This document shows, piece by piece, positions 14,495 to 29,096 of a stretch of 64,000 nt of DNA. Each line of letters begins with the position of its first letter. The stretch's first letter is position 1. The position numbers and the translations under genes are program-made. Source of the stretch: Comamonas endophytica (GTDB lineage Bacteria; Pseudomonadota; Gammaproteobacteria; Burkholderiales; Burkholderiaceae_C). The stretch is from the NCBI RefSeq assembly GCF_023634805.2, contig NZ_CP106882.1, forward strand, positions 186,001-250,000, in the 5' to 3' direction. Below the pieces are notes generated by a model that was not told where the DNA came from, searched no databases, and saw nothing but the letters and a program-made list of their open reading frames with translations.

Positions 14495-15280
14495 TCACAC
14501 ATTCGCCAACAGGCCCCCATCCACCCGCACCACCGACCCGGTCACATACGACGCCCGGCTGCTCGCCAGAAACGCCACCACATCCGCATATTCCTGCGGA
14601 TCGCCATAGCGTCCCACCGGAATCGCCGCAGTGCTCTCGCGCGACACCTCCTCCACCGCCCGGCCCTCGCGCTGCGCCTTCTGTTCGTCGAGGAACTGGA
14701 TGCGCGCCGTGGCCACGCGCCCGGGCAGCACGATGTTGCTGGTGATGCCGTCGCGGCCGACTTCGCGCGCCAGGGTCTTGGACCATCCCAGCAGCGTCAT
14801 GCGCAGCGCGTTGGACAGGCCGAGGTTGGCGATCGGCGCCACCACGCCCGAGGAGGTGCTGGTGACGATGCGGCCGAACCTGCGCTCGCGCATGCCGGGC
14901 AGCACGCGGTCGGTGATGGCGATCACCGACATCACCATGCTCTGGAAGTGCTTGCTCCACAGCGCGCTGCTCTGGCCGGCCACGGGCGTGGGCGGCGGGC
15001 CGCCGGTGTTGTTGACCAGCACGTCGACGGGGCCGAGCTCGCTCTCGATGTGCAGGATATTGGGCTCGATCACCGCCAGGTCGCCCAGATCCCATTGCAG
15101 CGCGATCGCCTTTGCGCCCGAAGCGTTGATCTCATCGGCCACCGCACGCGCCGCGGCCAGGTCGATGTCGGCCAGCGCGACCTGCGCGCCCTCGCGTGCC
15201 AGCGTGCGCGCGATCGCGCCGCCCAGGCCGCCGCCGGCGCCCAGCACCAGCGCGGTCTTTCCATTGAGTCCGAGGTCCAT
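14495..15280 (-). CDS. SDR family protein with atypical active site
   Basis: A 261-residue short-chain dehydrogenase fold. The cofactor motif GAGGGLGGAIA (residues 14-24) and VLVNNTGGPPP are present. Aligned on FabG through RFGRIVT, Ser143 is kept, but the catalytic Tyr and Lys positions read Ser156 and Arg160 (NLGLSNALR). It is the last gene of a minus-strand operon with a racemase and an FAD-linked oxidase. A second SDR with the same substitutions starts the plus-strand operon at 18616. The reaction is unknown; the cofactor site suggests NAD(P) is still bound. Confidence 0.85.
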   Translation of the reverse strand: MDLGLNGKTALVLGAGGGLGGAIARTLAREGAQVALADIDLAAARAVADEINASGAKAIALQWDLGDLAVIEPNILHIESELGPVDVLVNNTGGPPPTPVAGQSSALWSKHFQSMVMSVIAITDRVLPGMRERRFGRIVTSTSSGVVAPIANLGLSNALRMTLLGWSKTLAREVGRDGITSNIVLPGRVATARIQFLDEQKAQREGRAVEEVSRESTAAIPVGRYGDPQEYADVVAFLASSRASYVTGSVVRVDGGLLANV

Positions 15281-15308
15281 GTGTTTTCCTTGTGTTGTGG
15301 CGGCAAGC

Positions 15309-16724
15309 TCAGATCAGCTTGCCGGGATTCATGATCTGGTTCGGGTCGAGCGACTGCTTGATGCGCATCATCAGATCGAACTCGACCTCCGACTTGTAGT
15401 GGCGCAGCTCGTCGCGGCGCAGCTGGCCCACGCCGTGCTCGGCGCTGATCGAGCCATCGGCCTCGGCCACCATGTCGTGCACGATGCGGTTGAACCGCGC
15501 GGTGGCGGCAGCCAGCACCTCGGGCGCGGAATCCAGCGGCAGCAGCACGTTGTAGTGCAGGTTGCCGTCGCCCAGATGCCCGAAATTGATGATGCGCACA
15601 TCGGGGTCGGCGGCACGCAGCGCGGCTTCGGCCCGGTGCGCGAACCCGGCAATGGCCGAGATCGGCAGCGCGATGTCGTGTTTGATGGCCTTGCCCGCGC
15701 GCATCTGCGCCTGCGAGATGCCTTCGCGGATCTTCCAGAAGGCCTGGGTCTGCGCGCCGCTGGCGCTCACCGCCACGTCCTGCACGCTGCCGCTTTCCAG
15801 CGCCTTTTCCAGGCTGCCTTCGAGCAGCGACGCCAGGCCCTCGCCCTGGGTGTCGGCCAGCTCGATCAGCGCGTGGAAGGCATGCTCCTCGCCCAGCGGC
15901 GCGCGCACGTCGGCCACATGCGCCAGGATCAGCGCCAGCGAGGGCGCGGACATCATCTCGAAGGCCACCAGCCGCTCGCCGCAATCGGCGCGCAGCTGCG
16001 CCAGCAATTGCACCAGCGCCTCGATGTCGCGCGCGCCGACCCAGGCGGTGGCGCGCGCCACGGGCCGCGGCGAGAGCTTGAGCACCGCGGCCGTGATCAC
16101 GCCCAGCGTGCCCTCCGAGCCGATGAACAGGTCGCGCAGGTCATAGCCGGTGTTGTCCTTGCGCAGCGCGCGCAGGCCATGCCAGACGCGGCCGTCGGGC
16201 AGCACCACTTCCAGGCCCAGCGCCAGCTCGCGGGTATTGCCGTAGCGCAGCACCGCGATGCCGCCGGCGTTGGTGGCGAGATTGCCGCCGATGGTGCAGC
16301 TGCCCTCCGACCCCAGGCTCAGCGGAAAGAAGCGGTCGACCTCCTGCGCCGCGGCCTGGATATGCGCCAGCAGCACGCCGGCCTCGCAGGTCAAGGTGTT
16401 GTTCAGCGGATCGACCGCGCGGATGGCATTCATGCGCACCGTGCTCAGCACCACCTGCGCGCCGCTGCCGTCGGGCGTGGCGCCGCCGCTCATGCCGGTG
16501 TTGCCGCCCTGCGTCACCACGGGCGTGTGCGTCTCGTGGCAGATGCACATCACCGCGGCGGTCTCGGCCGTGTTGGCCGGGCGCACGACAATGGAGCTGC
16601 TGCCGGTGAATTTCTTCAGCCAGTCGGTTTCATAGGGTGCCTTGCCTTCGCTGTCGATGACCAGGCCCGCGTCGCCGACGGCCGCATGCAGGCGCTTGAG
16701 AAGTTGGGGGTGCAGATTGCTCAT
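15309..16724 (-). CDS. FAD-linked 2-hydroxyacid oxidase/dehydrogenase (GlcD/D2HGDH-like)
   Basis: Flavoprotein of 471 residues in the D-lactate/D-2-hydroxyglutarate dehydrogenase group, which oxidises a D-2-hydroxyacid to a 2-oxoacid. The PCMH-type FAD domain shows VVTQGGNTGMSGG, SLGSEGSCTIGGNLATNAGG and FIGSEGTLGVITA; the C-terminal domain has NFGHLGDGNLHYN (metal-binding His) and ISAEHGVGQLRRDEL, ending DPNQIMNPGKL. It lies three bases after the racemase gene and 28 bases before the atypical SDR gene in one operon. In a ring-amide pathway it could act on a hydroxyacid intermediate, which is inference. Confidence 0.88.
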   Translation of the reverse strand: MSNLHPQLLKRLHAAVGDAGLVIDSEGKAPYETDWLKKFTGSSSIVVRPANTAETAAVMCICHETHTPVVTQGGNTGMSGGATPDGSGAQVVLSTVRMNAIRAVDPLNNTLTCEAGVLLAHIQAAAQEVDRFFPLSLGSEGSCTIGGNLATNAGGIAVLRYGNTRELALGLEVVLPDGRVWHGLRALRKDNTGYDLRDLFIGSEGTLGVITAAVLKLSPRPVARATAWVGARDIEALVQLLAQLRADCGERLVAFEMMSAPSLALILAHVADVRAPLGEEHAFHALIELADTQGEGLASLLEGSLEKALESGSVQDVAVSASGAQTQAFWKIREGISQAQMRAGKAIKHDIALPISAIAGFAHRAEAALRAADPDVRIINFGHLGDGNLHYNVLLPLDSAPEVLAAATARFNRIVHDMVAEADGSISAEHGVGQLRRDELRHYKSEVEFDLMMRIKQSLDPNQIMNPGKLI

Positions 16725-16727
16725 GGT

Positions 16728-17387
16728 TCACCAGTCGAGTTGGATGCGGCCCAGGGCCATCGATGCCGCGGCCTGGGTGGGCTCGACCACCGGCAGGCCG
16801 GTGGCGTCCTGCAGCGGCGCGCGGTAAGCCGCCATGCCGGCGCAGCCCATCACCAGCACATTCGCGCCATGTTCATCGCGCAGCCGCTTTCCGGCCGCGA
16901 TCATGGCGCTCAACGTGGCTTCTCGGTCCGTCAGTTCGGTCACGCCGCGGCCAATGGCCACCTCGCCGGCCACGCGCTGGGTGATACCCATCGCGCCCCA
17001 GGTGCGCCAGTGGCGCCCGATGGATCCCTGCAGGATGGCCACCACGCCAAAGCGCTGCCCCAGCGTCATGGCCGTGAGCGCGCCGCATTCGCTGATGCCC
17101 AGCGACAGCACGCCCGGCAGCTCGCGCAGCATGTGCAGGCCCGGGTCGCTGAAGCAGGCAGTGACGAAACCCGCGGCTTTGTCCTGGTGCTCCTGCGCGA
17201 AGCGCAGCACCGACAGCGCCGCGCGGTCCACGTCCTGCTGGGTCTGCACGCCCGGCGGGCCGTCGGCCAGCGTCACGCACTCGATGCGCGGGCCGCCGGC
17301 GCGGCGAAGCGGCTCCATGGCGGCGTCGATGCCGGCGGTGACGGCCTGGCTGCTGTTGGGATTGATGACATAGAGCGTGTCGCGCAT
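16728..17387 (-). CDS. Asp/Glu/hydantoin racemase family protein
   Basis: A 219-residue cofactor-independent racemase of the HyuE/allantoin racemase type. It starts MRDTLYVINPNSS, the family N-terminus, and has the two catalytic Cys motifs FVTACFSDPGL and LVMGCAGMA. These enzymes racemise 5-substituted hydantoins, allantoin or related carbon acids. It is the first gene of the minus-strand operon divergent from the LysR gene, and the hydantoinase is encoded on the other side of that regulator, which supports a hydantoin-like substrate. Confidence 0.85.
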   Translation of the reverse strand: MRDTLYVINPNSSQAVTAGIDAAMEPLRRAGGPRIECVTLADGPPGVQTQQDVDRAALSVLRFAQEHQDKAAGFVTACFSDPGLHMLRELPGVLSLGISECGALTAMTLGQRFGVVAILQGSIGRHWRTWGAMGITQRVAGEVAIGRGVTELTDREATLSAMIAAGKRLRDEHGANVLVMGCAGMAAYRAPLQDATGLPVVEPTQAAASMALGRIQLDW

Positions 17388-17493
17388 GGGACGGCCTTCC
17401 TGGAATCTGGCTGGAGCCTTTGAAACGGGCTCCGGGGTTTTGCAGTGTAGGAGCGCAACAGGACTTCGACACTTGCCAATTCATGCGTCATGA

Positions 17494-17509
17494 TTAACAC
17501 CTTGTTATT
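17494..17509. promoter_or_regulatory. Candidate LysR site upstream of the racemase operon
   Basis: TTAACACCTTGTTATT shares its TTAACAC half-site with the perfect palindrome at 18440. If TACACT on the minus strand (17449-17444) is the -10 of the racemase operon, the site is centred near -64, the usual LysR activation position. It also lies just ahead of the LysR start and could give autoregulation. Confidence 0.45.
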
Positions 17510-17525
17510 CACAAGCGCATTTCAC

Positions 17526-18443
17526 ATGGCATTCAATCTCCGCCAGATAGAGGTTTTCCGCGCCGTCATGATCACCGGCTCGATCCGCGGCGCGGCGCAG
17601 CTGCTGTTCGTGTCGCAGCCCGCCGTGAGCCGGCTGCTGTCGCATACCGAGGCCCGCGTCGGCTTTCCCCTGTTCGAGCGCATCCGGGGGCGGCTGTTTG
17701 CCACGCCCGAGGCCAAGAAGCTGTTCCATGAGGTGGAGCAGGTCTATGCCGGCGTCAAGCGCGTGAACGAACTGGCGCGCGAGCTCAGCGAGCACCAGGA
17801 GGGCATCCTGAACCTGGTGGCCAGCCCCAGCGTCGGGCAGGCGGTGATCCCGCTGGCCATGGCCGAGTTCCGCCACAGCAACCCGCAGGTCAAGCTCACC
17901 TTCCAGTACCTGGGCCATGCGCCGCTGACCGAGCGGCTGCTCAACCGCCAGGCCGACCTCGCCGTCACCATCCTCCCCGTGAACCACCCGAATCTGGAGA
18001 TGGAGGAGATGGGCAGCGGCCGCCTGGTCTGCATCTGCCCCTACAACCACCCGCTGGCGCGGCGCGCCACGCTCAGCGTCGCCGACCTGCTGCCCTATCC
18101 GCTGATCGGCTATGACCGCGAGTCGCCTTTTGGCGCGATGGTGCATGCGCTGTTTTCCGCCAGCGGGGAGAACGCGCGCGCTGCCATCGAGGCCGGCTCG
18201 CCGCAGAACGCCTGCGCGCTGGTGCAGGCCGGCGCGGGCATCGCGCTGGTCGACGAATTCTCGGCCAGCAGTTGGGCGGCCAGCAAGTTCGTGGTGCGGC
18301 CGGTGCTCAACGCGCCAGTGCTCAAAGCCACCCTGGTGCGGCTGCGCACCGAGCCGATGTCGCAGCCGGCGCAGGCCTTCGTCGAGGTGCTTGCCCGCGT
18401 GATGGAGCGCGAGGGCTTCCGGGTTTCCACTGAAGACCATTAA
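17526..18443 (+). CDS. LysR family regulator of the hydantoinase island
   Basis: A 305-residue LysR protein. The ATG at 17526 gives the typical N-terminus MAFNLRQIEVFRAVMITGSI; the frame extends 12 codons upstream without support. Helix-turn-helix: GAAQLLFVSQPAVSRLLSHTE. The effector domain continues as in the CysB/Cbl-like group (ILNLVASPSVGQAVIP). It lies between two divergent catabolic operons, and TTAACAC-type sites occur on both sides of it. The right-hand site overlaps its own stop codon. Confidence 0.92.
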   Translation: MAFNLRQIEVFRAVMITGSIRGAAQLLFVSQPAVSRLLSHTEARVGFPLFERIRGRLFATPEAKKLFHEVEQVYAGVKRVNELARELSEHQEGILNLVASPSVGQAVIPLAMAEFRHSNPQVKLTFQYLGHAPLTERLLNRQADLAVTILPVNHPNLEMEEMGSGRLVCICPYNHPLARRATLSVADLLPYPLIGYDRESPFGAMVHALFSASGENARAAIEAGSPQNACALVQAGAGIALVDEFSASSWAASKFVVRPVLNAPVLKATLVRLRTEPMSQPAQAFVEVLARVMEREGFRVSTEDH

Positions 18444-18454
18444 CACAGTGTTAA
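18440..18454. promoter_or_regulatory. Perfect palindromic LysR operator candidate
   Basis: TTAACAC-A-GTGTTAA is a perfect 7-bp inverted repeat around one base, with T and A at LysR-type T-N11-A spacing. It is centred about 64 bases ahead of the transcription start predicted from ACGACA-N17-AATAAT at 18476-18504, the classic LysR recognition position. Confidence 0.6.
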
Positions 18455-18475
18455 TGACGACGGTCAAAGTGTCAC

Positions 18476-18504
18476 ACGACATGGCCGAGGGTGCTCGGAA
18501 TAAT
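18476..18504 (+). promoter_or_regulatory. Candidate promoter of the SDR-hydantoinase-ABC operon
   Basis: ACGACA (18476-18481) and AATAAT (18499-18504) are spaced by 17 bases, 4/6 and 5/6 matches to the sigma-70 hexamers. This predicts a leader of about 105 bases before the SDR start at 18616. A weak -35 fits an activator-dependent promoter. Confidence 0.4.
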
Positions 18505-18615
18505 GGTTGCAACTTCCACGCATCCAAGGCCGCGCTCCATGCTTCACCACCGCCCCCACACCGCCTGCCCTGCGCCTGCTCTCACCTCCGTTGAATCGGG
18601 TGCCGGGGTGGCCGC

Positions 18616-19395
18616 ATGAAGCTCGGACTCGAAGGCCGCCACGCCCTGGTCTGCGCCTCCAGCCGCGGCCTGGGCCGGGCCTGCGCCGAATCGCTGGCGG
18701 CAGAAGGCGTGAACCTGACCCTGCTGGCGCGCGGCCGTGAAGCCCTGGAGGAAACCGCCGAGCACATCCGCCGCACGCATCGGGTCACGGTGCATGCGGT
18801 GGTCGCCGACATCACCACTGCCGAAGGCCGCGCCGCCGCGCTGGCCGCGCACCCCGCGCCCGATATCCTGGTGAACAACGCCGGCGGCCCCAAGCCCGGG
18901 CATTTCCGCGACTGGGACCGCGACACCTGGATTGCCGCGCTGGACGCCAACATGCTGGCGCCCATCGAGATGATCCGCGCCACGCTGGACGGCATGGTCG
19001 AGCGGCGCTTCGGCCGCATCGTCAACATCACTTCGGCCGCCGTCAAGGCGCCCATCGACATCCTCGGCCTGTCCAATGGAGCGCGCTCGGGCCTGACCGG
19101 TTTCATCGCCGGCATCGCGCGCCAGAACGTGGCGCACAACGTCACCATCAACAACCTGCTGCCCGGCCCCTTCGAGACCGACCGCCTGCTGGAAACCGCG
19201 CGCCAGTGGGCGAAGGACAACGGCCTGCCCGAGGACGAGGTGCTGGCGCGCCGCCGCGCCGCCAACCCGGCCGGGCGCTTCGGCCTGCCACATGAATTCG
19301 GCGATGCCTGTGCCTTTCTATGCAGCGCGCAGGCCGGCTTCATCACGGCACAGAACCTGCTTCTGGACGGTGGTTCGTACCCCGGCACTTTCTGA
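18616..19395 (+). CDS. SDR family protein with atypical active site
   Basis: A 259-residue SDR protein starting MKLGLEGRHALVCASSRGLG. The cofactor loop (ASSRGLGRA) and VNNAGGPKPG are present. As in the SDR at 14495, the Tyr/Lys pair is replaced: Ser140 is kept, but Ser153 and Arg157 occupy the Tyr and Lys positions in ILGLSNGAR. It is the first gene of the plus-strand operon, ten bases before the hydantoinase. Two members of one unusual subfamily under one regulator suggest consecutive or paired steps in the same pathway. Confidence 0.87.
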   Translation: MKLGLEGRHALVCASSRGLGRACAESLAAEGVNLTLLARGREALEETAEHIRRTHRVTVHAVVADITTAEGRAAALAAHPAPDILVNNAGGPKPGHFRDWDRDTWIAALDANMLAPIEMIRATLDGMVERRFGRIVNITSAAVKAPIDILGLSNGARSGLTGFIAGIARQNVAHNVTINNLLPGPFETDRLLETARQWAKDNGLPEDEVLARRRAANPAGRFGLPHEFGDACAFLCSAQAGFITAQNLLLDGGSYPGTF

Positions 19396-19405
19396 GTTTC
19401 ACGCC

Positions 19406-20881
19406 ATGACTGCTACCCCTTTCGACCTGACGATCCGCAACGGCCGCATCAGCAATGCCGACCGCACTTTCCAAGCCGACATCGGCGTGCGCGACGGCGT
19501 GATCGTGGAGATCGCTCCGAACCTGGCGCCCGGTGCGCAGGACGTGGACGCCGCCGGCCGCTGGGTGCTGCCCGGCGGCATCGACAGCCACTGCCATATC
19601 GAGCAGCTCTCGGGCATGGGCGTGATGTGCGCCGACGACTTCTATTCCGGCACGGTGTCGGCGGCCTTCGGCGGCACCACCACCATCCTGTCGTTCGCGG
19701 CGCAGCACCGCAATGATTCGATCCCCGAGGTGGTGCAGGCCTACTCGAAGCTCGCGGCCGAGAAGGCGGTCATCGACTACGGCTTCCACCTGATCCTCAC
19801 CAACCCGGACGAGACGGCGCTGCGCGAGCACCTGCCGCAGGTGATACGAAACGGCATCACCTCGCTCAAGGTCTACATGACCTACGACAAGCTCAAGCTC
19901 GACGATTACCAGCTGCTGGAAGTCATGTCGGTCGCCGGTGAGGAAGGCGCGCTGATCATGATGCACGCCGAGAACCACGACATGATCCGCTGGATCGCGC
20001 ACCGCCTGCTCGAGCGCGGCCATACCGCGCCGAAGTTCCACGCGGTGGCGCACGACAAGCTGGCCGAGTCCGAAGCCACCAACCGCGCGATCGCGCTGGC
20101 ACGCCTGGCCGATGTGCCGGTGCTGATCGTGCATGTGGCCGGCCGCGAGACCGTGGAGGTGATCCGCAATGCGCGCCGCCTGGGCGCCGCCGTGTACGCC
20201 GAGAGCTGCCCGCAGTACCTGTTTCTCGAAGCTCAGGATAGCGACCTGCCCGGCATGGAAGGCGCGAAGTTCTGCTGCAGCCCGCCGCCGCGCGATGCCG
20301 ATTCGCAGGCAGCCGTCTGGGACGGCCTCAAGGACGGCACGCTGGGTGTCTATTCGTCCGACCACGCGCCCTACCGCTTCGATGCCTCGGGCAAGCTGCC
20401 CAAGGGCGATGCCACCACCTTCAAGGAAATGGCCAATGGCGTGCCCGGCATCGAGCTGCGCCTGCCGCTGCTGTTCTCCGAGGGCGTGATGGCCGGACGC
20501 ATGACGATCGAGGAATTCGTCGCGCTGACTTCCACCAACCATGCGCGCATGTATGGGCTGGCACCGCGCAAGGGCGCGATTGCCGTGGGCGCAGATGCCG
20601 ACATCGTGCTGTGGAATCCCGAGCGCCGGGTCGAGGTCAGCGCCGGCATGCTGCATGACAACGTCGGCTACACCCCCTACGAAGGGCGCGTGCTGCAGGG
20701 CTGGCCCGAGCAGGTGTTCAGCCGCGGCCGCTGCGTCGTACGCGACAACGCGCTGCAGGTCGAGCGCGGCAGCGGCAAGTATCTCGCGCGCGGCCGTCCC
20801 GATCCGCTGAGCAACCGCCCGGCGCAGTCGCTCGAGCGAGGGCGCTTCAGCGAACTCGTCGGCCTGCAGCGCGCCGAATGA
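19406..20881 (+). CDS. Dihydropyrimidinase/hydantoinase-type cyclic amidohydrolase
   Basis: A 491-residue amidohydrolase that opens cyclic amides (hydantoins, dihydropyrimidines) to N-carbamoyl acids. The binuclear metal site is complete: His62 and His64 in GGIDSHCHIEQ, carboxylated Lys155 (SLKVYMTY), His187 (MMHAEN), His243 (IVHVAG) and Asp319 (SSDHAPY). The start at 19406 gives the normal family N-terminus; the longer frame from 19292 overlaps the SDR gene. No N-carbamoylase accompanies it, so the ring-opened product must be processed by another enzyme or encoded elsewhere. The transport genes follow directly. Confidence 0.9.
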   Translation: MTATPFDLTIRNGRISNADRTFQADIGVRDGVIVEIAPNLAPGAQDVDAAGRWVLPGGIDSHCHIEQLSGMGVMCADDFYSGTVSAAFGGTTTILSFAAQHRNDSIPEVVQAYSKLAAEKAVIDYGFHLILTNPDETALREHLPQVIRNGITSLKVYMTYDKLKLDDYQLLEVMSVAGEEGALIMMHAENHDMIRWIAHRLLERGHTAPKFHAVAHDKLAESEATNRAIALARLADVPVLIVHVAGRETVEVIRNARRLGAAVYAESCPQYLFLEAQDSDLPGMEGAKFCCSPPPRDADSQAAVWDGLKDGTLGVYSSDHAPYRFDASGKLPKGDATTFKEMANGVPGIELRLPLLFSEGVMAGRMTIEEFVALTSTNHARMYGLAPRKGAIAVGADADIVLWNPERRVEVSAGMLHDNVGYTPYEGRVLQGWPEQVFSRGRCVVRDNALQVERGSGKYLARGRPDPLSNRPAQSLERGRFSELVGLQRAE

Positions 20882-20937
20882 CCCTCTTTTGTTTCCGGGC
20901 CGCACGGCCCTCTTTAGATCACTCCAGGAGTTGCACC

Positions 20938-21777
20938 ATGAAGTCTTCCGTCTTTGGCCTGTCCCTGCTTGCGCTGCTGGGCCTTGCCTCCACCGCCGCC
21001 ACTGCCCAGGCGCCGCTGCGCAGCGCCGTCGATGCCACCTTTGCGCCGCATGCCATGGCCAAGCTCGGCGGCGGCGTGCAGGGCTTCAACGTCGATCTGG
21101 GCGAGGAACTGGCCAAGCGCCTGGGCCGCAAGATCGAGATCGAGGGCGCGGAGTTCTCGGGCCTGGTTCCAGGCCTCAACAGCAAGCGCTATGACTTCCT
21201 GGTCGCCCCCGTCACCGTGACGCCCGAGCGCGCCAAATCGCTGCTGTTCACCGAAGGCTATCTGGACACGGACTACACCTTCCTCGGCACCAAGGCCGCT
21301 CCCGCCATCGAGAAGCTCGAAGACCTCAAGGGCAAGACCGTGGCCGTGAACAAGGGCTCGAACTACGAGGGCTGGGCGCGCGACAACGCCGCCAAGTACG
21401 GCTTCAAGTACGACGTCTATGGCGCCAATGCCGACGCGGTGCAGGCCGTGCAGTCGGGCCGCGCCGACTACAACCTGGCCGGCACCACGGTGGTCGCCTG
21501 GGCCGCCAAGCAGAACCCCGCGCTCAAAACCAGCTACACCATCAAGACCGGCCTGGTCTGGGCGCTGCCCTTCCGCGCCGACGACAAGGCCGGGCGCGAT
21601 GCCGCATCGAACGCGCTCAAGTGCATGAAGAAGGACGGCACGGTGGCCAAGCTGGCGGTGAAGTGGTTCGGCTTCCAGCCCGGCGCCGACGACGCCGCGG
21701 TGAAGATCGCCCCCGGCACCGGCGTGCCCGGCACCGAAGGCTACGACCCCACCCCCGTCACGCCGAAGTGTGCCTGA
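20938..21777 (+). CDS. Amino acid-type ABC transporter substrate-binding protein
   Basis: Periplasmic receptor of 279 residues (family SBP_bac_3). The signal peptide [25 protein letters not shown] begins at 20938 behind AGGAG. The mature part has the family pattern [31 protein letters not shown] and [18 protein letters not shown]. Its stop overlaps the start of the ATPase gene (TGATG). The importer probably brings in the substrate of the hydantoinase or a related ring compound. Confidence 0.9.
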
Positions 21778-22517
21778 TGCCGATCCTTGAAATCTCCGGG
21801 CTGCACAAGTCCTATGGCGACAACCAGGTGCTGCGCGGCGTCGATCTGAAGGTCAACGCCGGCGAGCTGGTGTGCGTGATCGGGCCCTCGGGCTCGGGCA
21901 AGAGCACCATGCTGCGCTGCTGCAACCTGCTGGAAACTCCGACCGGCGGCACCATCCTGGCCAACGGCCACCAAGTCACCGCACCCACCGTGGACATCAA
22001 CCGCCTGCGCCAGGACGTGGGCATGGTGTTTCAGCAATTCAACCTCTACCCGCACCTCACGGCGCTCGACAACGTGGCGCTGGCGCTGCGCACCGTGCAG
22101 CGCCGCTCGAAAGCCGAGTCGCACATGCTGGCGCAGTCCGCGCTCGAGCAGGTGGGCCTGGGCGCCAAGGCCGGAGCCTATCCCTCCGAGCTCTCGGGTG
22201 GACAGCAGCAGCGCGTGGGCATTGCGCGCGCGGTGGCGCTCAAGCCCAAGGTGATCCTGTTCGACGAGCCGACCAGCGCGCTCGATCCCGAACTGGTGGA
22301 GGATGTGCTCAATGTGATGCGCGACCTGCGCGCCCGTGGCATGACGATGCTGGTGGTAACGCACGAGATGGCGTTCGCGCATGCCGCCGCCGACCGCGTG
22401 GTGTTCATGGACGGCGGCGTGGTCGTCGAGCAGGGCACGGCCGCCGAGATGTTCGAGCATCCGCGCGAGGCGCGCACGCAGAGCTTCCTGGCGCGCTACG
22501 GGAGCCGGCTGACATGA
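21777..22517 (+). CDS. Amino acid-type ABC transporter ATP-binding protein
   Basis: A 246-residue PAAT-family (GlnQ/HisP-like) ATPase. Walker [11 protein letters not shown]-loop [12 protein letters not shown], signature [14 protein letters not shown] and Walker [13 protein letters not shown] are all intact, with the H-loop in VVTHEMAFA. It is coupled by one-base overlap to the receptor gene and by ATGA overlap to the first permease gene. Confidence 0.95.
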
Positions 22518-23194
22518 CAGTCGCAGACAGCGGTTTCTTCTTCACCTTCTTCAACCTCGAGGTGGCGCGCCAGTACTGGCCGGTCATCGCCTCGGGGGCG
22601 CTGGTCACGGTGGGCGTGGGCCTGGCGGTGGTGCTCACTGGAGTCGTGCTCGGGCTGATGCTGGCCATCGTGCGTGCGCTGGGACTGCGCGCGCTATCGC
22701 TGCCGATCATCGCGTTTGCCGACATCATGCGTTCGCTGCCGGCGCTGGTGGTGCTGATCGTGCTGTATTTCGGGCTGCCGGCGCTCGGCCTGCCGCTGTC
22801 GGCCTTTGCCGTGACCTGGCTGTCGCTGTCGCTGGTGCTGGCCGCCTACGCCGAGGAAAGCATCTGGGCCGGCATCTGCGCCGTGCCGGGCGGCCAGCTC
22901 GAGGCCGCGCGCTCCACCGGCATGCGCTGGACGCAGGCCATGCGCCTGGTGGTGCTGCCCCAGGCCCTGCGCCGCGCGCTGCCGCCGCTCACCAACCGCG
23001 TGATCTCGATCACCAAGAACACCGCGCTGGGCTCGGTGGTGGCGCTGGGCGAGATCCTCAACAACGCGCAGGGCGCGAGCAGCCATGCGGGCAATCCGAC
23101 GCCGCTGATGATGGCCGCGGGCGCCTATCTGCTCGTCTTCCTGCCGCTGGTGATCTTCTCGCGCTGGCTCGAACAACACTGGCAGCAGAGGTAG
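22514..23194 (+). CDS. Amino acid-type ABC transporter permease
   Basis: A 226-residue inner-membrane subunit with about five helices and the EAA coupling loop [25 protein letters not shown] that contacts the ATPase. It starts at the ATG at 22514, overlapping the ATPase stop, and begins [22 protein letters not shown]. It pairs with the second permease at 23198, the usual HisQ/HisM-like arrangement. Confidence 0.92.
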
Positions 23195-23197
23195 CAC

Positions 23198-23869
23198 GTG
23201 GAAACGCTGATTCACAACTTCTTCAACCTCGAGGTCTACGCGCAGGTGTTTCCGCATCTGCTGAACGGCCTGTGGACCACGATCTGGCTGGCGGCGCTGG
23301 TCATTCCGCTGGGCGCGGCCGCCGGCCTGGCGCTGGCGCTGGGGCTCACGCAGTCCAGCCGGCGCTGGCTGCGCTGGAGCATCATCGGCTACATCGACTT
23401 CTTCCGTGCCTTTCCGCCGCTGGTGCTGCTGATCCTGATCTATTTCGGCGGTCCGTTCCTGGGCCTGGAGCTGGGCAAGGTGGCCGCCGTGGCGCTGGCC
23501 TTCGTGCTCAACAACGCCAGCTACTACGCCGAAGTGTTTCGCGCCGGGCTCGAAGGCGTGGCCAAAGGGCAGATGGAAGCCGCGCGCTCCACCGGCCTCA
23601 CGCGCGCCCAGGCCATCCGCCATGTGGTGATTCCGCAGGCCGTCAAGAACGTGCTGCCCGACCTGGTCGGCAACAGCATCGAGGTCGTCAAGCTCACCAG
23701 CATTGCCAGCGTCGTCGCCATGCCCGAGCTGCTGCGCGCGGCGCGCGATGCGCAGTCGCTGGTCTACAACCCCTCGCCCGTGATGCTGGCCGCGCTGATG
23801 TACCTGGCGCTGCTGTGGCCGCTGACGCGCTGGCTCGGCCGCCTGGAGCACCGGCGCGTGCGGCGGTAA
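23198..23869 (+). CDS. Amino acid-type ABC transporter permease
   Basis: Second membrane subunit, 223 residues, starting at a GTG codon at 23198 three bases after the first permease. The EAA loop reads QMEAARSTGLTRAQAIRHVVIPQAV. Both permeases begin with an NFFNLEV- or FFNLEV-like segment, showing they are paralogues. A repeat element (23875-23982) follows directly and may attenuate expression of the lyase gene downstream. Confidence 0.92.
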   Translation: METLIHNFFNLEVYAQVFPHLLNGLWTTIWLAALVIPLGAAAGLALALGLTQSSRRWLRWSIIGYIDFFRAFPPLVLLILIYFGGPFLGLELGKVAAVALAFVLNNASYYAEVFRAGLEGVAKGQMEAARSTGLTRAQAIRHVVIPQAVKNVLPDLVGNSIEVVKLTSIASVVAMPELLRAARDAQSLVYNPSPVMLAALMYLALLWPLTRWLGRLEHRRVRR

Positions 23870-23874
23870 ATAAA

Positions 23875-23982
23875 ACCGTTCGTGGTGAGCCTGTCGAACC
23901 ATGGACGGCCAGCTCTCTACTGGAGGGAGGGCCGTCCATCCTTCGACGGGGCCGCCCAGGCAAGCTCAGGACGAACGGTTCG
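23875..23982. repeat. Extragenic inverted repeat inside the operon
   Basis: Begins ACCGTTCGTGGTGAGCCTGT and ends CAGGACGAACGGT, with GGACGGCC/GGCCGTCC near the middle, giving an inverted arrangement about 108 bp long. It is of the same family as 14352, 52287 and 58367, and lies between the second permease and the DapA-like gene. Confidence 0.75.
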
Positions 23983-24014
23983 AGATCCCTCCCCCTTCTT
24001 CCCAAAGGAACCCA

Positions 24015-24956
24015 ATGCAAACCGAAAAGATCAGCGAGACAACCAAGGGCGTCTATATCATTGCCGCCACTCCCTTCACCGACAGCGGCGAGTTGGACCT
24101 CGAGAGCACCGACAGCCTGACCGACTTCTATCTGGAGAAGGGCGTCACCGGCTTCACCATCCTGGGCATGATGGGCGAGGCGCCCAAGCTCACCGAGGAA
24201 GAGACGCTCACGGTGATGGATCGCGTGCTCAAGCGGATCGACGGCCGCGTGCCGGTGGTGGTGGGCGTGAGCCATGCCTCCAACCGCCATGTCGAGCGCC
24301 TGTCGAAGACCGCCATGGACCAGGGCGCGGCCGGGGTGATGGTGGCGCCCGCCGCCAACCTTAAGACCGACGAGCAGGTCTACAACTACTACGCGACGGT
24401 GGCCAGGCTGCTCGGCCCCGACATCCCGATCTGCCTGCAGGACTTCCCCCAGGTGACCGGCGTGCACATGTCGGTGGCGGTGATCCTCAAGCTGATCGAC
24501 GATTTCCCGCAGATCGTCATGCTCAAGCACGAGGATTTCCCTGGCATGCGCAAGCTCAGCGAGGTGCGCGAGCAAAGCACGGCTGCGGCGCGCCGGCGCA
24601 TCAGCATCCTGGTCGGCAACGGCGGCCTGTTCCTGCCCCAGGAAATGCTGCGCGGCGCCGACGGCGCGATGACCGGCTTTGCCTACCCCGAGATGCTGGT
24701 GCAGTCGTGCGCGCTGTTCGACCAGGACCGCGGCGAGGAAGCCGAAGACCTCTTCAACCTCTACCTGCCGCTGCTGCGCCACGAGTTCCAGTACGGCCTG
24801 GGCCTGGCGCTGCGCAAGGAGACCCTCAAGCGCCGCGGCGCGATCCGCTCGGCCTATGTGCGCCGTCCCGGCCCGGTGCTGAACGCCACCGACATGGCCG
24901 AGCTCGGCCGCCTGATCGAGCGCCAGGACAGACTGCTGCGCGAACGCGGCCTCTGA
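24015..24956 (+). CDS. DapA-family lyase with atypical active site
   Basis: A 313-residue class I aldolase/lyase fold of the dihydrodipicolinate synthase family. The Schiff-base Lys171 (IVMLKHEDFPG) is present, but the GTTGE motif reads GMMGE (52-55) and the Tyr of the YNVP motif is replaced by Gln142 (CLQDFPQVTG). The tyrosine usually donated by the dimer partner is also missing (APAANLK). It is therefore unlikely to be a true DapA; a retro-aldol or hydro-lyase step on a different acid is possible. The start at 24015 has AAAGGA upstream. Confidence 0.85.
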   Translation: MQTEKISETTKGVYIIAATPFTDSGELDLESTDSLTDFYLEKGVTGFTILGMMGEAPKLTEEETLTVMDRVLKRIDGRVPVVVGVSHASNRHVERLSKTAMDQGAAGVMVAPAANLKTDEQVYNYYATVARLLGPDIPICLQDFPQVTGVHMSVAVILKLIDDFPQIVMLKHEDFPGMRKLSEVREQSTAAARRRISILVGNGGLFLPQEMLRGADGAMTGFAYPEMLVQSCALFDQDRGEEAEDLFNLYLPLLRHEFQYGLGLALRKETLKRRGAIRSAYVRRPGPVLNATDMAELGRLIERQDRLLRERGL

Positions 24957-25045
24957 GCCCGCATGGGCACGCGACTTGCATACCGCTGCGTGCCCTTTTC
25001 TTCCACCCACCGGCGCCTGCCGGCTGGAGATTCAAGGAGTGCGCC

Positions 25046-26026
25046 ATGCAACGTCGACATTTCCTGCAGGCTTCGAGCGCTGCCCCCTTCGCAGCCGCGC
25101 TGCCGGCACGCGCCCAGTCCTATCCGGCCCGACCCGTCCGCATGGTCGTGCCCTTCCCGCCCGGCGGCCCGGTGGACAGCTTCGCGCGCTTCTACGCCGA
25201 AGCCATGGGCAAGCAGCTGGGCCAGGCGGTCGTGGTGGAGAACAAGGGCGGCGCCTCGGGCGCGCTGGGCAGCCTGGAGGTGAAGAATAGCCCCGCTGAC
25301 GGCTATACGCTGCTGTTTGCCACGGCCTCGACCCATGCCCTGTACAACCTGACCGAGCCCAAGCCGCGCTACAGCGCCGCCGACGACTTCGACTACATCG
25401 GCGTGCTCGGCGGCGCGCCGGTGGCATTTGCCGTGGCTCCGTCCATGCCCAAGACGCTCAAGACACTGGTCATTGCCGCCAAGCACAACCCCGGCAAATA
25501 CAACTATGGCTCCCCCGGTACCGGCACCCTGATGCATGTGGCCGTGGAGCGCTTCAAGCAGCTCACCGGCGCGCCGCTGATGCACATCCCCTACAAGGGC
25601 ACCGGTCCCTCGATGCAGGACCTGATGGGCGGCGCCACCGAAATGGCCGTGGGCACGCTGGGCGTGATGCTGCCCTTTCACCGCAGCGGCCGCATGCATA
25701 TCGTGGGCGTGGCCACCGCCAGGCGCCTGGCGCTGGCGCCGGACATTCCCACCATTGCCGAATCCGCAGACCTCGCTGCCCCGTTCGAGGCCATGCTGTG
25801 GAACGTGCTGGCGGCGCCCCGCGGCACGCCGGCTGCTGTCAAAAAGACGCTCGCGGACGCCACCAGGGCCGTCATGGGCTCGCCGGCCATGGCGGCCACG
25901 CTCGGCGAGCAGGGGATCTTCGCCGATCTGCATATTGGCGATGCCGCGGCCGCGGCCTATGTGAAGGCCGAGACGGCAAAGTGGAAGCCGGTGGTGGCGC
26001 AACTCGGTACCGCGCTGGGCCAGTGA
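25046..26026 (+). CDS. Bug-family (TctC-like) solute-binding receptor
   Basis: A 326-residue tripartite tricarboxylate transporter receptor, a family hugely expanded in Burkholderiales. The N-terminus MQRRHFLQASSAAPFAAALPARAQ has a twin-arginine-like signal. The mature part shows YPARPVRMVVPFPPGGPVDSFAR, VVENKGGASG, YGSPGTGTLMH and MHIPYKGTGPSMQDLMGG. The start at 25046 follows AAGGAG. No TctA or TctB membrane subunits are near, so it is an orphan receptor that would work with a distant permease or as a sensor. It lies 89 bases after the lyase gene and may share its operon. Confidence 0.92.
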   Translation: MQRRHFLQASSAAPFAAALPARAQSYPARPVRMVVPFPPGGPVDSFARFYAEAMGKQLGQAVVVENKGGASGALGSLEVKNSPADGYTLLFATASTHALYNLTEPKPRYSAADDFDYIGVLGGAPVAFAVAPSMPKTLKTLVIAAKHNPGKYNYGSPGTGTLMHVAVERFKQLTGAPLMHIPYKGTGPSMQDLMGGATEMAVGTLGVMLPFHRSGRMHIVGVATARRLALAPDIPTIAESADLAAPFEAMLWNVLAAPRGTPAAVKKTLADATRAVMGSPAMAATLGEQGIFADLHIGDAAAAAYVKAETAKWKPVVAQLGTALGQ

Positions 26027-26364
26027 GGGCCAGGCGCCCGGCTGCGTCCAGTGCCGGGCAGGTGCAACGATGATCTGCATTGCGCGCAATCCCCGGCTGC
26101 GCCTTCCCGGACTTCGGGCGCACCATCAACGACCGGTGCGCACCGAAAAATACAGGCTGCTTTCTTGATTCGCTGCCGTGAATAGGCAGCGCTTCTCCCC
26201 GTGCGCTCTCCTGGCCACATGCCTTTTCCACCTGCGGCCTGCGTTGGGCTGAACTGGTGCAAATGCCGCAAATATCGACCGATATTCAGGAACAAAAGCT
26301 GGCACGTCAATTGCTCCATCGATCCCGGAACGACTGTGAATCTGACGCTAACCCGGGAGAGCAC
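26027..26364. other. 338-bp intergenic region
   Basis: Separates the hydantoinase island from the NitT/TauT-amidase operon. It holds a weak hairpin without a T-tract (GCCCGGC/GCCGGGC at 26036-26059) and an inverted repeat at 26271-26286. I see no convincing gene; a promoter for the downstream operon should lie here but I cannot assign hexamers. Confidence 0.6.
26271..26286. promoter_or_regulatory. Inverted repeat, possible operator of the amidase operon
   Basis: AATATCG-AC-CGATATT is a perfect 7-bp inverted repeat in otherwise GC-rich DNA, 79 bases ahead of the ATPase start. No regulator gene is adjacent. Confidence 0.35.
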
Positions 26365-27177
26365 ATGGAAACTCTGGAAAAGGATTTGGCGGTTGCCGAG
26401 GCGCAGGTTGCCTTTTCATTGAAGAAAGTCCACAAGACTTTCGAAGATGCACAAGGCAACGAGGTCGAAGTGATCAGGGATATCACTTTGGATGTCAAGG
26501 AATCCGAATTCATCAGCATCGTCGGGCCCAGCGGCTGCGGCAAGACGACGATGTTCAATATCATTTCCAATCTTCTGCCACCGAGCAGCGGCGACATAGT
26601 TCACCGCAAGATGAACTACAAGCGCGTGGGCACGAACATCGGCTACATGCTCCAGCGCGATCTGCTCTTTCCCTGGCGCACGATTATCGAGAACGTGGTG
26701 CTGGGGCTGGAAATAGAAGGTATTCCGGCCGATATACGCAAGAAGAAAGCACTGGAGTACCTCGACAAATACGGGCTGGCGGATTTCGCCAATGCCTATC
26801 CGCATACCCTGTCGGGCGGCATGCGCCAGCGCGTGGCGCTGATCCGGACCCTGATCACCGACCCCGACATCATTCTTCTGGACGAGCCCTTTTCCGCGCT
26901 CGACTACCAGACCCGCCTGGTGCTGGAGGAGGAGATCGTTTCCATCCTGCGTGAATCGGGCAAGACCGTGGTGCTCATCACCCACGATATCGGCGAAGCC
27001 ATCGCCATGTCGGACCGGGTGGCCGTCATGACGCAGCGCCCCACTTCGGTCAAGAAGGTCTACGACGTCGGCCTCTCGCGCAAGCACGGCTCCTGCCTCA
27101 AGGCGCGCAACGATCCCATGTATTCGAAATTCTTCGATGCCATCTGGGCCGACCTCGACATTCAGATTGGACGGTGA
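26365..27177 (+). CDS. NitT/TauT-type ABC transporter ATP-binding protein
   Basis: A 270-residue ATPase of the nitrate/sulfonate/taurine importer family. Walker A GPSGCGKTT, Q-loop MLQRDLLFPWRTIIENV, signature LSGGMRQRVALIR and Walker B IILLDEPFSALD are intact. The ATG at 26365 follows GGGAGA; the frame extends 36 codons further upstream without a site. It is the first gene of an importer-amidase operon, four bases before the permease gene. Confidence 0.92.
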   Translation: METLEKDLAVAEAQVAFSLKKVHKTFEDAQGNEVEVIRDITLDVKESEFISIVGPSGCGKTTMFNIISNLLPPSSGDIVHRKMNYKRVGTNIGYMLQRDLLFPWRTIIENVVLGLEIEGIPADIRKKKALEYLDKYGLADFANAYPHTLSGGMRQRVALIRTLITDPDIILLDEPFSALDYQTRLVLEEEIVSILRESGKTVVLITHDIGEAIAMSDRVAVMTQRPTSVKKVYDVGLSRKHGSCLKARNDPMYSKFFDAIWADLDIQIGR

Positions 27178-27181
27178 CTCG

Positions 27182-28057
27182 ATGTCAATTGCCACTCACT
27201 CCGCCGCCATCCCTGCCTCGGCTTCACCCACCAAAGCGGTGGCCTCCACAGCCGCCGCCGTCAAGGCCGCGCCAAGGAAACGCAAGCCGTTCCAATGGAA
27301 AAACAGCTTCTGGATCGCCAACCTGCTGCGCATTGCCATGATTGCCGCCGTGCTGGCGGCCTGGCAGATCGCCGCCGACCAGGGCGCGATCAATCCGTTT
27401 CTGATGGGCTCGCCCGCCGGCATCTACAAGGAGGCCCTGCGCCTGGTGGAAACCGGTCAACTGTGGCAGGACACCTTTGCCACCGTGCACGCGACCATCA
27501 TCGGCTTCCTTGTCGGCAGCCTGTCCGGTGCTTTCTTCGGCTTGCTGCTGTGGTGCTTCCCCTATGTGGCGAGAATTCTCGACCCGTTCTTTGTCGCGCT
27601 CAACGGCCTGCCGAAAATCGCGCTGGCGCCGATGATCATCATCTGGTTCGGCTCTGGCATGCTGTCCAAGGTGGCGCTGGCATTTGTCGCCACCTTCATC
27701 GTTTCACTGCTGTCCGCCTATCAAGGCACGCACCAGATCGACAGCAGCCTGGTGAATCTGATGCGCTCGTTGGGCGCCACCAAAAGGCTGATATTCCTGA
27801 AGCTGGTGATACCCGCCACCTTGCCCTGGATCATCGCCTCCTTCCGCCTGAATATCGGCTTCGCGCTGATTGCCGAAATCGGCGGTGAATTCATTGCCTC
27901 CGACAGGGGCCTGGGCCGAATGATTTTCGTCTCCGGCAACCTGTTCAACCTCAATGCCGTGTGGGTCGGAATCATGATGCTCATGGCCGTGGCCGTGACG
28001 CTCTATGCCATCGTCTCGCGCGTCGAGAAAAACATCCTCCCCTGGAATTCCAAGTAA
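27182..28057 (+). CDS. NitT/TauT-type ABC transporter permease
   Basis: A 291-residue inner-membrane subunit. It starts MSIATHSAAIPASASP, followed by an Ala/Lys-rich cytoplasmic extension of about 40 residues, then about six helices. The coupling loop reads LVNLMRSLGATKRLIFLKLVIPATLPWI, the SsuC/TauC pattern. It lies between the ATPase and receptor genes of the same operon. Confidence 0.92.
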   Translation: MSIATHSAAIPASASPTKAVASTAAAVKAAPRKRKPFQWKNSFWIANLLRIAMIAAVLAAWQIAADQGAINPFLMGSPAGIYKEALRLVETGQLWQDTFATVHATIIGFLVGSLSGAFFGLLLWCFPYVARILDPFFVALNGLPKIALAPMIIIWFGSGMLSKVALAFVATFIVSLLSAYQGTHQIDSSLVNLMRSLGATKRLIFLKLVIPATLPWIIASFRLNIGFALIAEIGGEFIASDRGLGRMIFVSGNLFNLNAVWVGIMMLMAVAVTLYAIVSRVEKNILPWNSK

Positions 28058-28079
28058 ATCTCTCACTGAAAGGTTGATC

Positions 28080-29069
28080 ATGAAAGCTCTTGCGAAGATC
28101 GTTGTCAGCACCTTGATTGCTTTTGGAATATCCCAGTCCGCCCTGGCGCAGGCGGGGAAACCGGTGGACAAGGTGCTTGTGACCGAAGCCTTCCACAGCC
28201 TGCTTTATCTTCCGGTCTATGTCGCCAAGCACGAGGGCATTTTCCAGAAGCACAACATCGACGTGCCGGTCGTGCGCTCGGCAGGCTCCGGTCCCACGGC
28301 GCTGGCCTCGGTGCTGGCTGGCGAAGCCCAGTTCTCCGTGCATGGGCCCGAGCATGTCGGTTTCGCCCAGCAGCGCGGCGGCAAGGCCAAGGCGGTGAGC
28401 GCCGTGGCCAACAGCGCGCCGGTCTGGATCCTGGCGCGCAAGGATGTGGCCTACCAGAAACCGTCGGACATGAAGGGCAAGCGCGTCACCGTGGGCCTCG
28501 CGCCCGGCACCTCCAATACGCTGCTCAAGCGCTTCCTGATCGCCAACAACCTCAAGGACAAGACCGACGTCACCGTCACCGAAGTCCAGAACGGCTCGGA
28601 GCTCGGCCCGGTGCTGGCCGGCCAATCCGACTTCAGCGTCGCCTACCAGCCCCAGGTCGAGCAGGGCCTGGCCCAGGGTATGAAAATGGTCCATGCCTTC
28701 ACCGGCGAATATCCCGAATATGCGTTCTCGACCATCAATACCTCGCAGCAGCTGATTGAAAAGAACCCTGCCCTGGTGGGCCGCTTCGTTCAAGCCATCA
28801 ACGACTCGCTGAAGTACATGCGGGCTAATCCAGACGCAGCCAAGGCCGTGGCACGCAAGGAATTCGCTTCGCTCGACGCGGCGGTCGTCAACTCGGCGGT
28901 GCAGCGCATGCTCGACAGCAATGTCTACCCGGCCAACGTGCAGATCACCGAGAAGGCGTTCAAGACGGCGATCGACATGCAGAAATTCGTCGGCAACATC
29001 AAGACCGACATGCACTATGGCGACATCGTCCAGGGCGCGTTCACGCAAAGCGTGATGGCGGCGAAGTGA
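28080..29069 (+). CDS. NitT/TauT-type ABC transporter substrate-binding protein
   Basis: A 329-residue periplasmic receptor with signal peptide MKALAKIVVSTLIAFGISQSALAQ. The family pattern is visible in SLLYLPVYVAKHEGIFQKHNIDV, SVHGPEHVGFAQQRGG and GKRVTVGLAPGTSNTLLKRF. Such receptors bind nitrate, sulfonates, thiamine precursors or aromatic acids. The adjacent amidase suggests an amide or amide-derived ligand, which is inference. Start at 28080, 22 bases after the permease. Confidence 0.9.
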   Translation: MKALAKIVVSTLIAFGISQSALAQAGKPVDKVLVTEAFHSLLYLPVYVAKHEGIFQKHNIDVPVVRSAGSGPTALASVLAGEAQFSVHGPEHVGFAQQRGGKAKAVSAVANSAPVWILARKDVAYQKPSDMKGKRVTVGLAPGTSNTLLKRFLIANNLKDKTDVTVTEVQNGSELGPVLAGQSDFSVAYQPQVEQGLAQGMKMVHAFTGEYPEYAFSTINTSQQLIEKNPALVGRFVQAINDSLKYMRANPDAAKAVARKEFASLDAAVVNSAVQRMLDSNVYPANVQITEKAFKTAIDMQKFVGNIKTDMHYGDIVQGAFTQSVMAAK

Positions 29070-29096
29070 CGACAGCATTCCGAGGACTAGATACCC

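Follow-up and report, generated by a model that had tools for sequence, protein, structure and literature searches.

D-hydantoinases serve as industrial catalysts, and to our knowledge their natural substrates are poorly known. In the described hyu clusters of Aminobacter, Bradyrhizobium and Rhodobacter, a hydantoinase gene is found together with a carbamoylase gene and, in some of them, a racemase gene, and the dihydropyrimidinase gene of Aminobacter DSM24755 is flanked by ABC transporter genes (PMC3546935); in Paraburkholderia phymatum, a putative RpoN site is reported for a hydantoinase operon (PMC5979394). Here we analyzed a catabolic gene cluster at positions 14495-26026 of a 64,000-nucleotide stretch of the Comamonas endophytica genome (hereafter the window; C2:186001-250000). 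The cluster shares with these systems a racemase and D-hydantoinase core, the D-carbamoylase family in linked relatives and ABC transporter genes (as in Aminobacter DSM24755), and differs from them in having the carbamoylase at a second locus, in the addition of a D-2-hydroxyacid dehydrogenase and a DapA-like enzyme, and in its LysR operator and its polar amino-acid-type importer, whose amine site is altered. Given that a literature search for this gene set or parts of it, with limited coverage of subscription papers, found no description, we place the cluster as a variant of the hyu kind.

The cluster comprises two units on either side of a LysR regulator gene (Table 1). The left unit, on the minus strand, encodes a racemase, a FAD-linked 2-hydroxyacid dehydrogenase and a short-chain dehydrogenase (SDR_L); the right unit, on the plus strand after the LysR gene, encodes a further short-chain dehydrogenase (SDR_R), a D-hydantoinase, the four components of an importer, a DapA-like enzyme and a Bug receptor. 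Our preferred reading, to which we assign a probability of about one half, is that these genes belong to a D-hydantoin-type (cyclic ureide) utilization system that is divided between two loci with a common type of operator. An anionic compound lacking a free alpha-amino group would enter through the importer, the racemase would equilibrate the ring carbon, and the D-hydantoinase would open the ring to give an N-carbamoyl-D-amino acid. A D-carbamoylase encoded at a locus on contig C1 would then yield the D-amino acid, which an adjoining pyridoxal phosphate (PLP)-dependent ammonia-lyase would convert to ammonia and a 2-oxo acid. Handling of the 2-hydroxy or 2-oxo acid skeleton would fall to the D-2-hydroxyacid dehydrogenase and the dehydratase-like DapA homologue, with the SDRs as optional members, and LysR would control both units through TTAAC-N5-GTTA(A) sites. 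Import, racemization and D-specific ring opening likely form the front end, which is of a known kind, D-hydantoin utilization; the dehydrogenase and DapA-like pair is the unusual part. Members of the dehydrogenase family convert D-2-hydroxy acids to 2-oxo acids and enzymes with the DapA fold act on 2-oxo acids, so the two fit together chemically.

The hydantoinase scored above the cut-offs of two curated models, TIGR02033 (544 versus 393) and NF009941 (766 versus 647), and an orthologue alignment revealed that each of its metal-site residues is kept in 80/80 rows; we take the binuclear site of D-hydantoinases and dihydropyrimidinases to consist of four histidines, a carbamylated lysine and an aspartate. 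By these measures the protein belongs to the D-hydantoinase/dihydropyrimidinase family, and activity on 5-substituted hydantoins is predicted. The protein fell short of two other assignments: the allantoinase AllB (TIGR03178, 237 bits against a cut-off of 358) and ErtD of the ergothioneine pathway, a hydantoin-5-propionate amidohydrolase that likewise acts on a cyclic ureide (216 of 650 and 181 of 600 needed). The racemase exceeded the PF01177 cut-off (165 versus 31 bits) and retains in 45/45 rows both conserved cysteines, which are presumably the catalytic pair; an allantoin racemase is one of its five solved relatives found. Racemase and hydantoinase genes share one locus, as in hyu systems. 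The import and ring opening of a cyclic amide or ureide, as proposed in a preliminary description of this DNA, are supported.

To place the cluster among its relatives (loci carry L numbers and genomes G numbers), we confirmed 147 hydantoinase relatives, kept the best 80 and mapped them with the window proteins; 45 loci, including the window, have flanks giving at least 21 kb, and membership in this full-flank set was assigned by per-gene identity cut-offs. Among the 45, the racemase is found in 32, the solute-binding protein (SBP) of the importer in 36, LysR in 22, the FAD dehydrogenase in 18, SDR_R in 11 and SDR_L in 9, while the DapA-like gene occurs as type 1 in 25 and as type 2 in 7; in 30 of the loci a member of the D-carbamoylase family is encoded within the 10-kb flanks, and in four a PLP ammonia-lyase. 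Genes for racemase, LysR, D-hydantoinase, amino-acid-type importer, DapA-like enzyme and D-2-hydroxyacid dehydrogenase co-occur in Comamonadaceae, Alcaligenaceae and some Alphaproteobacteria. Their order varies by group (Variovorax/Comamonas, Bordetella/Achromobacter, Ferrovibrio, Reyranella), and the retention of much of the membership despite this reordering speaks for a functional link. The preliminary description had proposed a single LysR-centered catabolic unit, to be checked by comparing neighborhoods; linkage across genera was found for most of the genes, with LysR, racemase, hydantoinase and importer recurring together and an operator preceding both units. The distribution of the cluster is patchy: in a sample of 399 genomes of the order, a hydantoinase above 72% identity is present in C. 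endophytica alone and one at 58-72% in 20 further genomes; the two same-genus genomes, G153 and G355, have none at E<=1e-170. One relative, L036, seems to have an interruption in its hydantoinase reading frame.

Many relatives carry, beside the hydantoinase gene, a gene for an N-carbamoyl-D-amino acid hydrolase (the copy at L044 matches 8i99 with E 1.2e-109). The preliminary description reported no carbamoylase, which is correct for the locus, as no match to the D-carbamoylase family was found in 14495-26026 or in 9406-30881, nor at E<=0.001 on C2. It is not correct for the genome: a D-carbamoylase gene, whose product is 50% identical to the family probe, lies at C1:3326178-3327182, next to a PLP lyase gene and with the same operator type. 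The gene order there (partly assigned by eye) is second LysR, D-carbamoylase, PLP lyase and Bug receptor, and the same set occurs in G001, G007, G009, G010 and G011; the lyase is nearest to threo-3-hydroxyaspartate ammonia-lyase, although below the model cut-off (323 of 452 bits). A carbamoylase 87-91% identical to that of C. endophytica is encoded together with a PLP lyase inside the hydantoinase locus itself in V. paradoxus 110B (L015), Variovorax sp. CF079 (L018), Lampropedia (L038) and Verticiella (L039), and without the lyase at L036. We searched 25 hydantoinase genomes, chosen by us from the 80 loci, and detected a D-carbamoylase at E<=1e-40 in 18, nine of them of the C. endophytica type at E<=1e-180. 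Among the 399 genomes of the order, this type was found at E<=1e-130 in C. endophytica only, and the difference between 9/25 hydantoinase genomes and 0/398 others gives a Fisher p of 1.9e-12, uncorrected for kinship or for the choice of the 25.

Alignment of the racemase-LysR gap from eleven loci revealed a conserved block, TTAAC-N5-GTTA, which in the window takes the palindromic form TTAAC-N5-GTTA(A) and occurs twice in the cluster. The true LysR start is probably 17526, matching the annotation of the Comamonas antarctica homologue. Exact TTAACN5GTTA occurs at four places in the C. endophytica genome: the two in the cluster, one on C3 (C3:60375), and one on C1, about 160 bases before the carbamoylase gene and between it and the second LysR gene. 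For two outside sites, the probability that one would land in this gap (about 235 bp) by chance is about 1e-4. Over 81 loci (1.39 Mb) we found 47 sites, against four for the control pattern; none of the 47 falls within a mapped gene when 10-20 bases are allowed at the gene ends, and 44 are within 3 kb upstream of the hydantoinase. Sites were present in 26 of the 30 loci with a LysR homologue (window included; 11 of the 26 are discovery loci) and in none of the other 51. Ten whole genomes showed two sites per cluster, with no outside site in three, one or two in six, and 15 places in G021; in G001, which harbors L001, the sole outside site again precedes the carbamoylase gene. We infer from these positions that the carbamoylase locus may be regulated together with the cluster. 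Seven outside-site stretches from five relatives were read: two lie by other LysR genes, two others, from two Variovorax genomes, precede an rne-like gene, and further regulon members were not recognized, as the remaining stretches adjoin genes of no plain relation. The record of L001 is titled Pantoea sp. 18069; its proteins are 88-96% identical to the Comamonadaceae-type cluster, and the label is probably wrong.

The importer may point to the class of substrate. In family-3 amino-acid SBPs, as we understand them, an arginine holds the ligand carboxylate and an aspartate the alpha-ammonium group. The arginine (R98) is kept in 46/46 rows, whereas the position that is aspartate in three solved relatives (AncQR and two AncCDT-1-type constructs) is glycine, alanine or serine in all 46. 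An SBP with the arginine but without the aspartate fits a ligand lacking a free alpha-amine, for example an N-carbamoyl acid or a hydantoin whose side chain is acidic, and we predict an anionic importer ligand of this kind.

The preliminary description placed the later steps beyond the textbook hydantoin route, and the dehydrogenase and DapA-like pair is indeed linked to the hydantoinase. The Zn site of D2HGDH-group enzymes is given as two histidines and a glutamate (PMC10025160). The FAD dehydrogenase retains these ligands (H383, H390 and E429) in 20/20 rows, as do the D-2-hydroxyglutarate dehydrogenases of P. aeruginosa and human. Also kept are what we take to be the substrate residues of the human enzyme, save one threonine, which is serine in 19/20 rows. 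The cluster enzymes differ from D-2-hydroxyglutarate dehydrogenase in this residue, in their linkage to a hydantoinase and in forming their own tree group: 19 of the 20 rows (loci plus window) stand apart from four paralogues of the C. endophytica genome, with L040 outside (quick tree, SH-aLRT 93). An assignment as the glycolate oxidase subunit GlcD was rejected (TIGR00387, 260 bits, below the cut-off of 568).

The DapA-like protein keeps the Schiff-base lysine (K171) in 36/36 rows. The places of Thr44 and Tyr133, which we assume to be the DapA residues and numbering, were located by motif and hold methionine or isoleucine and glutamine, respectively, in 36/36 rows. Given these replacements and a TIGR00674 score of 94 of the 206 bits needed, we rejected the protein as a DapA (4-hydroxy-tetrahydrodipicolinate synthase, also called dihydrodipicolinate synthase). 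Its AlphaFold model (pLDDT 92.3) superimposed with a TM of 0.93 on 3dz1, a Rhodopseudomonas palustris structure titled dihydrodipicolinate synthase, and 0.86 on 7c0d; after 3dz1, the next structure match is L-2-keto-3-deoxyarabonate dehydratase, also the nearest characterized relative by sequence. With that enzyme (7c0c, 3fkk) it shares the DapA fold, the Schiff-base lysine and a Gln-Asp pair, at 29% identity. It thus resembles a 2-keto-acid dehydratase more than a DapA. A plain aldolase is unsupported for the same reason, and the C-C bond cleavage proposed in the preliminary description is not indicated, because the closest characterized relative is a dehydratase, although the lysine is kept.

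The two SDRs, treated in the preliminary description as pathway steps, could not be upheld as such: the cluster on plasmid CP099604.1 (L206) has neither, for which reason we do not count them as core, and that on NZ_CP054841.1 (L205) lacks SDR_L. Among the full-flank loci, SDR_L occurs only with the FAD dehydrogenase and the type-1 DapA-like gene (9/9 each). SDR_R is present in six of the seven type-2 loci, and five of the 11 loci with SDR_R, which form the window group, carry type 1 in its place. A glutathione S-transferase-like gene adjoins SDR_L in four of the nine full-flank SDR_L loci (L003, L004, L013 and L016).

Several observations weigh against a two-locus D-hydantoin system. Seven of the 25 cluster genomes, five isolates (G003, G004, G008, G013 and G021) and two metagenome-assembled genomes (G002 and G006), have no D-carbamoylase at E<=1e-40; Variovorax sp. 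YR216 and J2P1-59 are among the strains in which none was found. The genome-wide total of boxes is not above that of the reversed-pattern control (5 versus 9 strand hits), so that only the positions of the boxes are telling. Two of the seven outside sites adjoin other LysR genes (G003:C7 and G004:C9), which means that the box may belong to a LysR subfamily and not to one regulator; the second LysR on C1, 38.6% identical to the cluster LysR, may by kinship itself use the site before the carbamoylase. The strict box is absent from carbamoylase loci L161-L164 (Achromobacter, Bordetella). The five isolate genomes without a detected D-carbamoylase do carry the dehydrogenase and DapA-like pair, which leaves room for a route in which, once the ring is open, the FAD dehydrogenase would oxidize the ureido acid to a 2-oxo acid and the DapA-like enzyme would eliminate urea or ammonia, in parallel to the removal of water by its dehydratase relative, the chromosomal D-carbamoylase serving another substrate. 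The conserved Zn site and lysine of the pair agree with such a route, as does a raw tendency of the FAD dehydrogenase and a flank carbamoylase to exclude each other (7 FAD dehydrogenase loci with and 11 without a carbamoylase, against 23 with and 4 without among the other loci; Fisher p=0.0029). However, this tendency was lost in a comparison that allowed for the hydantoinase tree (3 independent pairs, median p 1), and we therefore do not claim exclusion; L019 and L021 carry both sets, and locus L006 of G006 lacks the FAD dehydrogenase. Moreover, a hydantoin-derived ureido acid is itself no 2-hydroxy acid. M20-type carbamoylase/allantoate-amidohydrolase homologues scored above cut-off in 12/13 genomes tested, among them 6/7 without a D-carbamoylase, so another carbamoylase might act there; they were also found in 6/14 control genomes and are too widespread to be singled out as the substitute. 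We consider the carbamoylase-free route improbable, and we give the same low likelihood to its variant in which a single operator governs both branches in strains possessing the chromosomal carbamoylase locus as well.

The cluster might alternatively salvage purine ureides, with allantoin or a near relative as substrate, an allantoin racemase, ring opening by the hydantoinase homologue, and the dehydrogenase handling ureidoglycolate or glycolate/glyoxylate. On CP099604.1 the cluster directly adjoins genes annotated as allantoinase PuuE and ureidoglycolate lyase, and the racemase has the allantoin racemase among its solved relatives. Across the 85 sequences searched, however, ureidoglycolate lyase was found in L206 only, and PuuE-like matches beyond L206 were confined to a paralogue locus of C. 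endophytica (L086) and weak hits in L056 and L077. Together with the AllB score below cut-off, the far exceeded D-hydantoinase cut-off and the linked D-carbamoylases, which point to hydantoins of alpha-amino acids, this makes purine-ureide salvage the least probable of the alternatives. It is also conceivable, although we doubt it, that the two divergent units belong to unrelated pathways with a common promoter region, and that the FAD dehydrogenase and the DapA-like enzyme serve another substrate, such as a sugar acid; the best characterized DapA-like relative acts on a sugar acid. A search of 200 genomes of the family placed DapA-like relatives at 22 further places outside the window, and the 20 of these inspected with their flanks showed no hydantoinase match. 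Against this, the hydantoinase linkage survives several rearranged orders (window, Bordetella and Ferrovibrio types), the FAD-dehydrogenase and hydantoinase trees are alike in outline, as judged informally, and the operator precedes both units. Finding the inducing compound would show what these D-hydantoinases evolved for and whether a DapA-fold enzyme can replace a carbamoylase; the conserved operator, the importer without an amine clamp and the named partner enzymes provide handles for this.

All twelve open reading frames (ORFs) of the cluster open where the preliminary description placed them and appear catalytically intact, and its family assignments hold. Intergenic gaps within both units range from -7 to 56 bp, except that the DapA-like gene is preceded by 145 bp and the Bug gene by 83 bp. 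The genome consists of three contigs, C1 (3,710,006 bases), C2 (647,507) and C3 (131,045). The best match in a plasmid collection is a 642,987-base Comamonas antarctica plasmid, 88% identical over 91% of the cluster, and C2 is probably a megaplasmid.

Table 1. Features of the cluster, in window coordinates.
Feature	Position	Strand	Basis or remark
SDR_L, short-chain dehydrogenase	14495..15280	-	optional member; profile match, 9/45 full-flank loci
FAD- and probably Zn-dependent D-2-hydroxyacid dehydrogenase (D2HGDH family)	15309..16724	-	profile, Zn-site residues, tree
Hydantoin/allantoin-type racemase (PF01177)	16728..17387	-	profile, two cysteines
LysR-type operator ATTAACACCTTGTTATT	17493..17509		between racemase and likely LysR start
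LysR regulator	17490..18443	+	likely start codon 17526
Second operator, palindrome ATTAACACAGTGTTAAT	18439..18455		overlaps LysR end, upstream of SDR_R-hydantoinase
SDR_R, short-chain dehydrogenase	18616..19395	+	optional; in relatives goes with type-2 DapA-like gene
D-hydantoinase/dihydropyrimidinase	19406..20881	+	curated models NF009941, TIGR02033; metal ligands
Solute-binding protein (SBP)	20938..21777	+	carboxylate arginine kept, alpha-ammonium aspartate lost
Importer ATPase	21771..22517	+	profile match
Importer permease 1	22520..23194	+	profile match
Importer permease 2	23198..23869	+	profile match
DapA-superfamily Schiff-base enzyme, not a DapA	24015..24956	+	nearest characterized relative L-2-keto-3-deoxyarabonate dehydratase
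Bug/TctC-type receptor, loosely linked	25040..26026	+	profile match

Directly downstream of the cluster, window positions 26257-30449 encode an NMT-type ABC importer and an amidase. On the related plasmid NZ_CP054841.1, this block likewise comes after the cluster, from which a histidine kinase gene separates it; at the mapping depth used, no such block was found beside the hydantoinase in the 80 loci (scattered matches of 23-40% only), and we therefore regard these genes as neighbors and not as part of the system. Elsewhere in the window, a 754-codon ORF at 6094-8358 contains long repeats rich in Ala, Gln and Glu, of the AQAQAEA type.

Additional ureide-related genes were observed at other loci. 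On CP099604.1, the annotated PuuE and ureidoglycolate lyase genes occupy positions 942-4754 of L206 together with another amino-acid-type importer. In the C. endophytica genome, a second hydantoinase, 52% identical, is encoded at L086 (C1:3235000-3254900) in what reads like another ureide-type cluster; the PuuE-like deacetylase there is 41% identical to the annotated PuuE of CP099604.1, and translations suggest an amidohydrolase, a GntR-like regulator, racemase-like genes, an amidase in place of the carbamoylase, and an NMT-type importer. Reyranella-type loci (such as L043, L044, L046-L049 and L053-L055) carry a TRZ/ATZ-family amidohydrolase, perhaps a deaminase that makes the cyclic ureide, beside the DapA-like, hydantoinase and D-carbamoylase genes, together with a peptide-type importer and a flavin-reductase-like protein, which were identified by eye, no model matching the latter.

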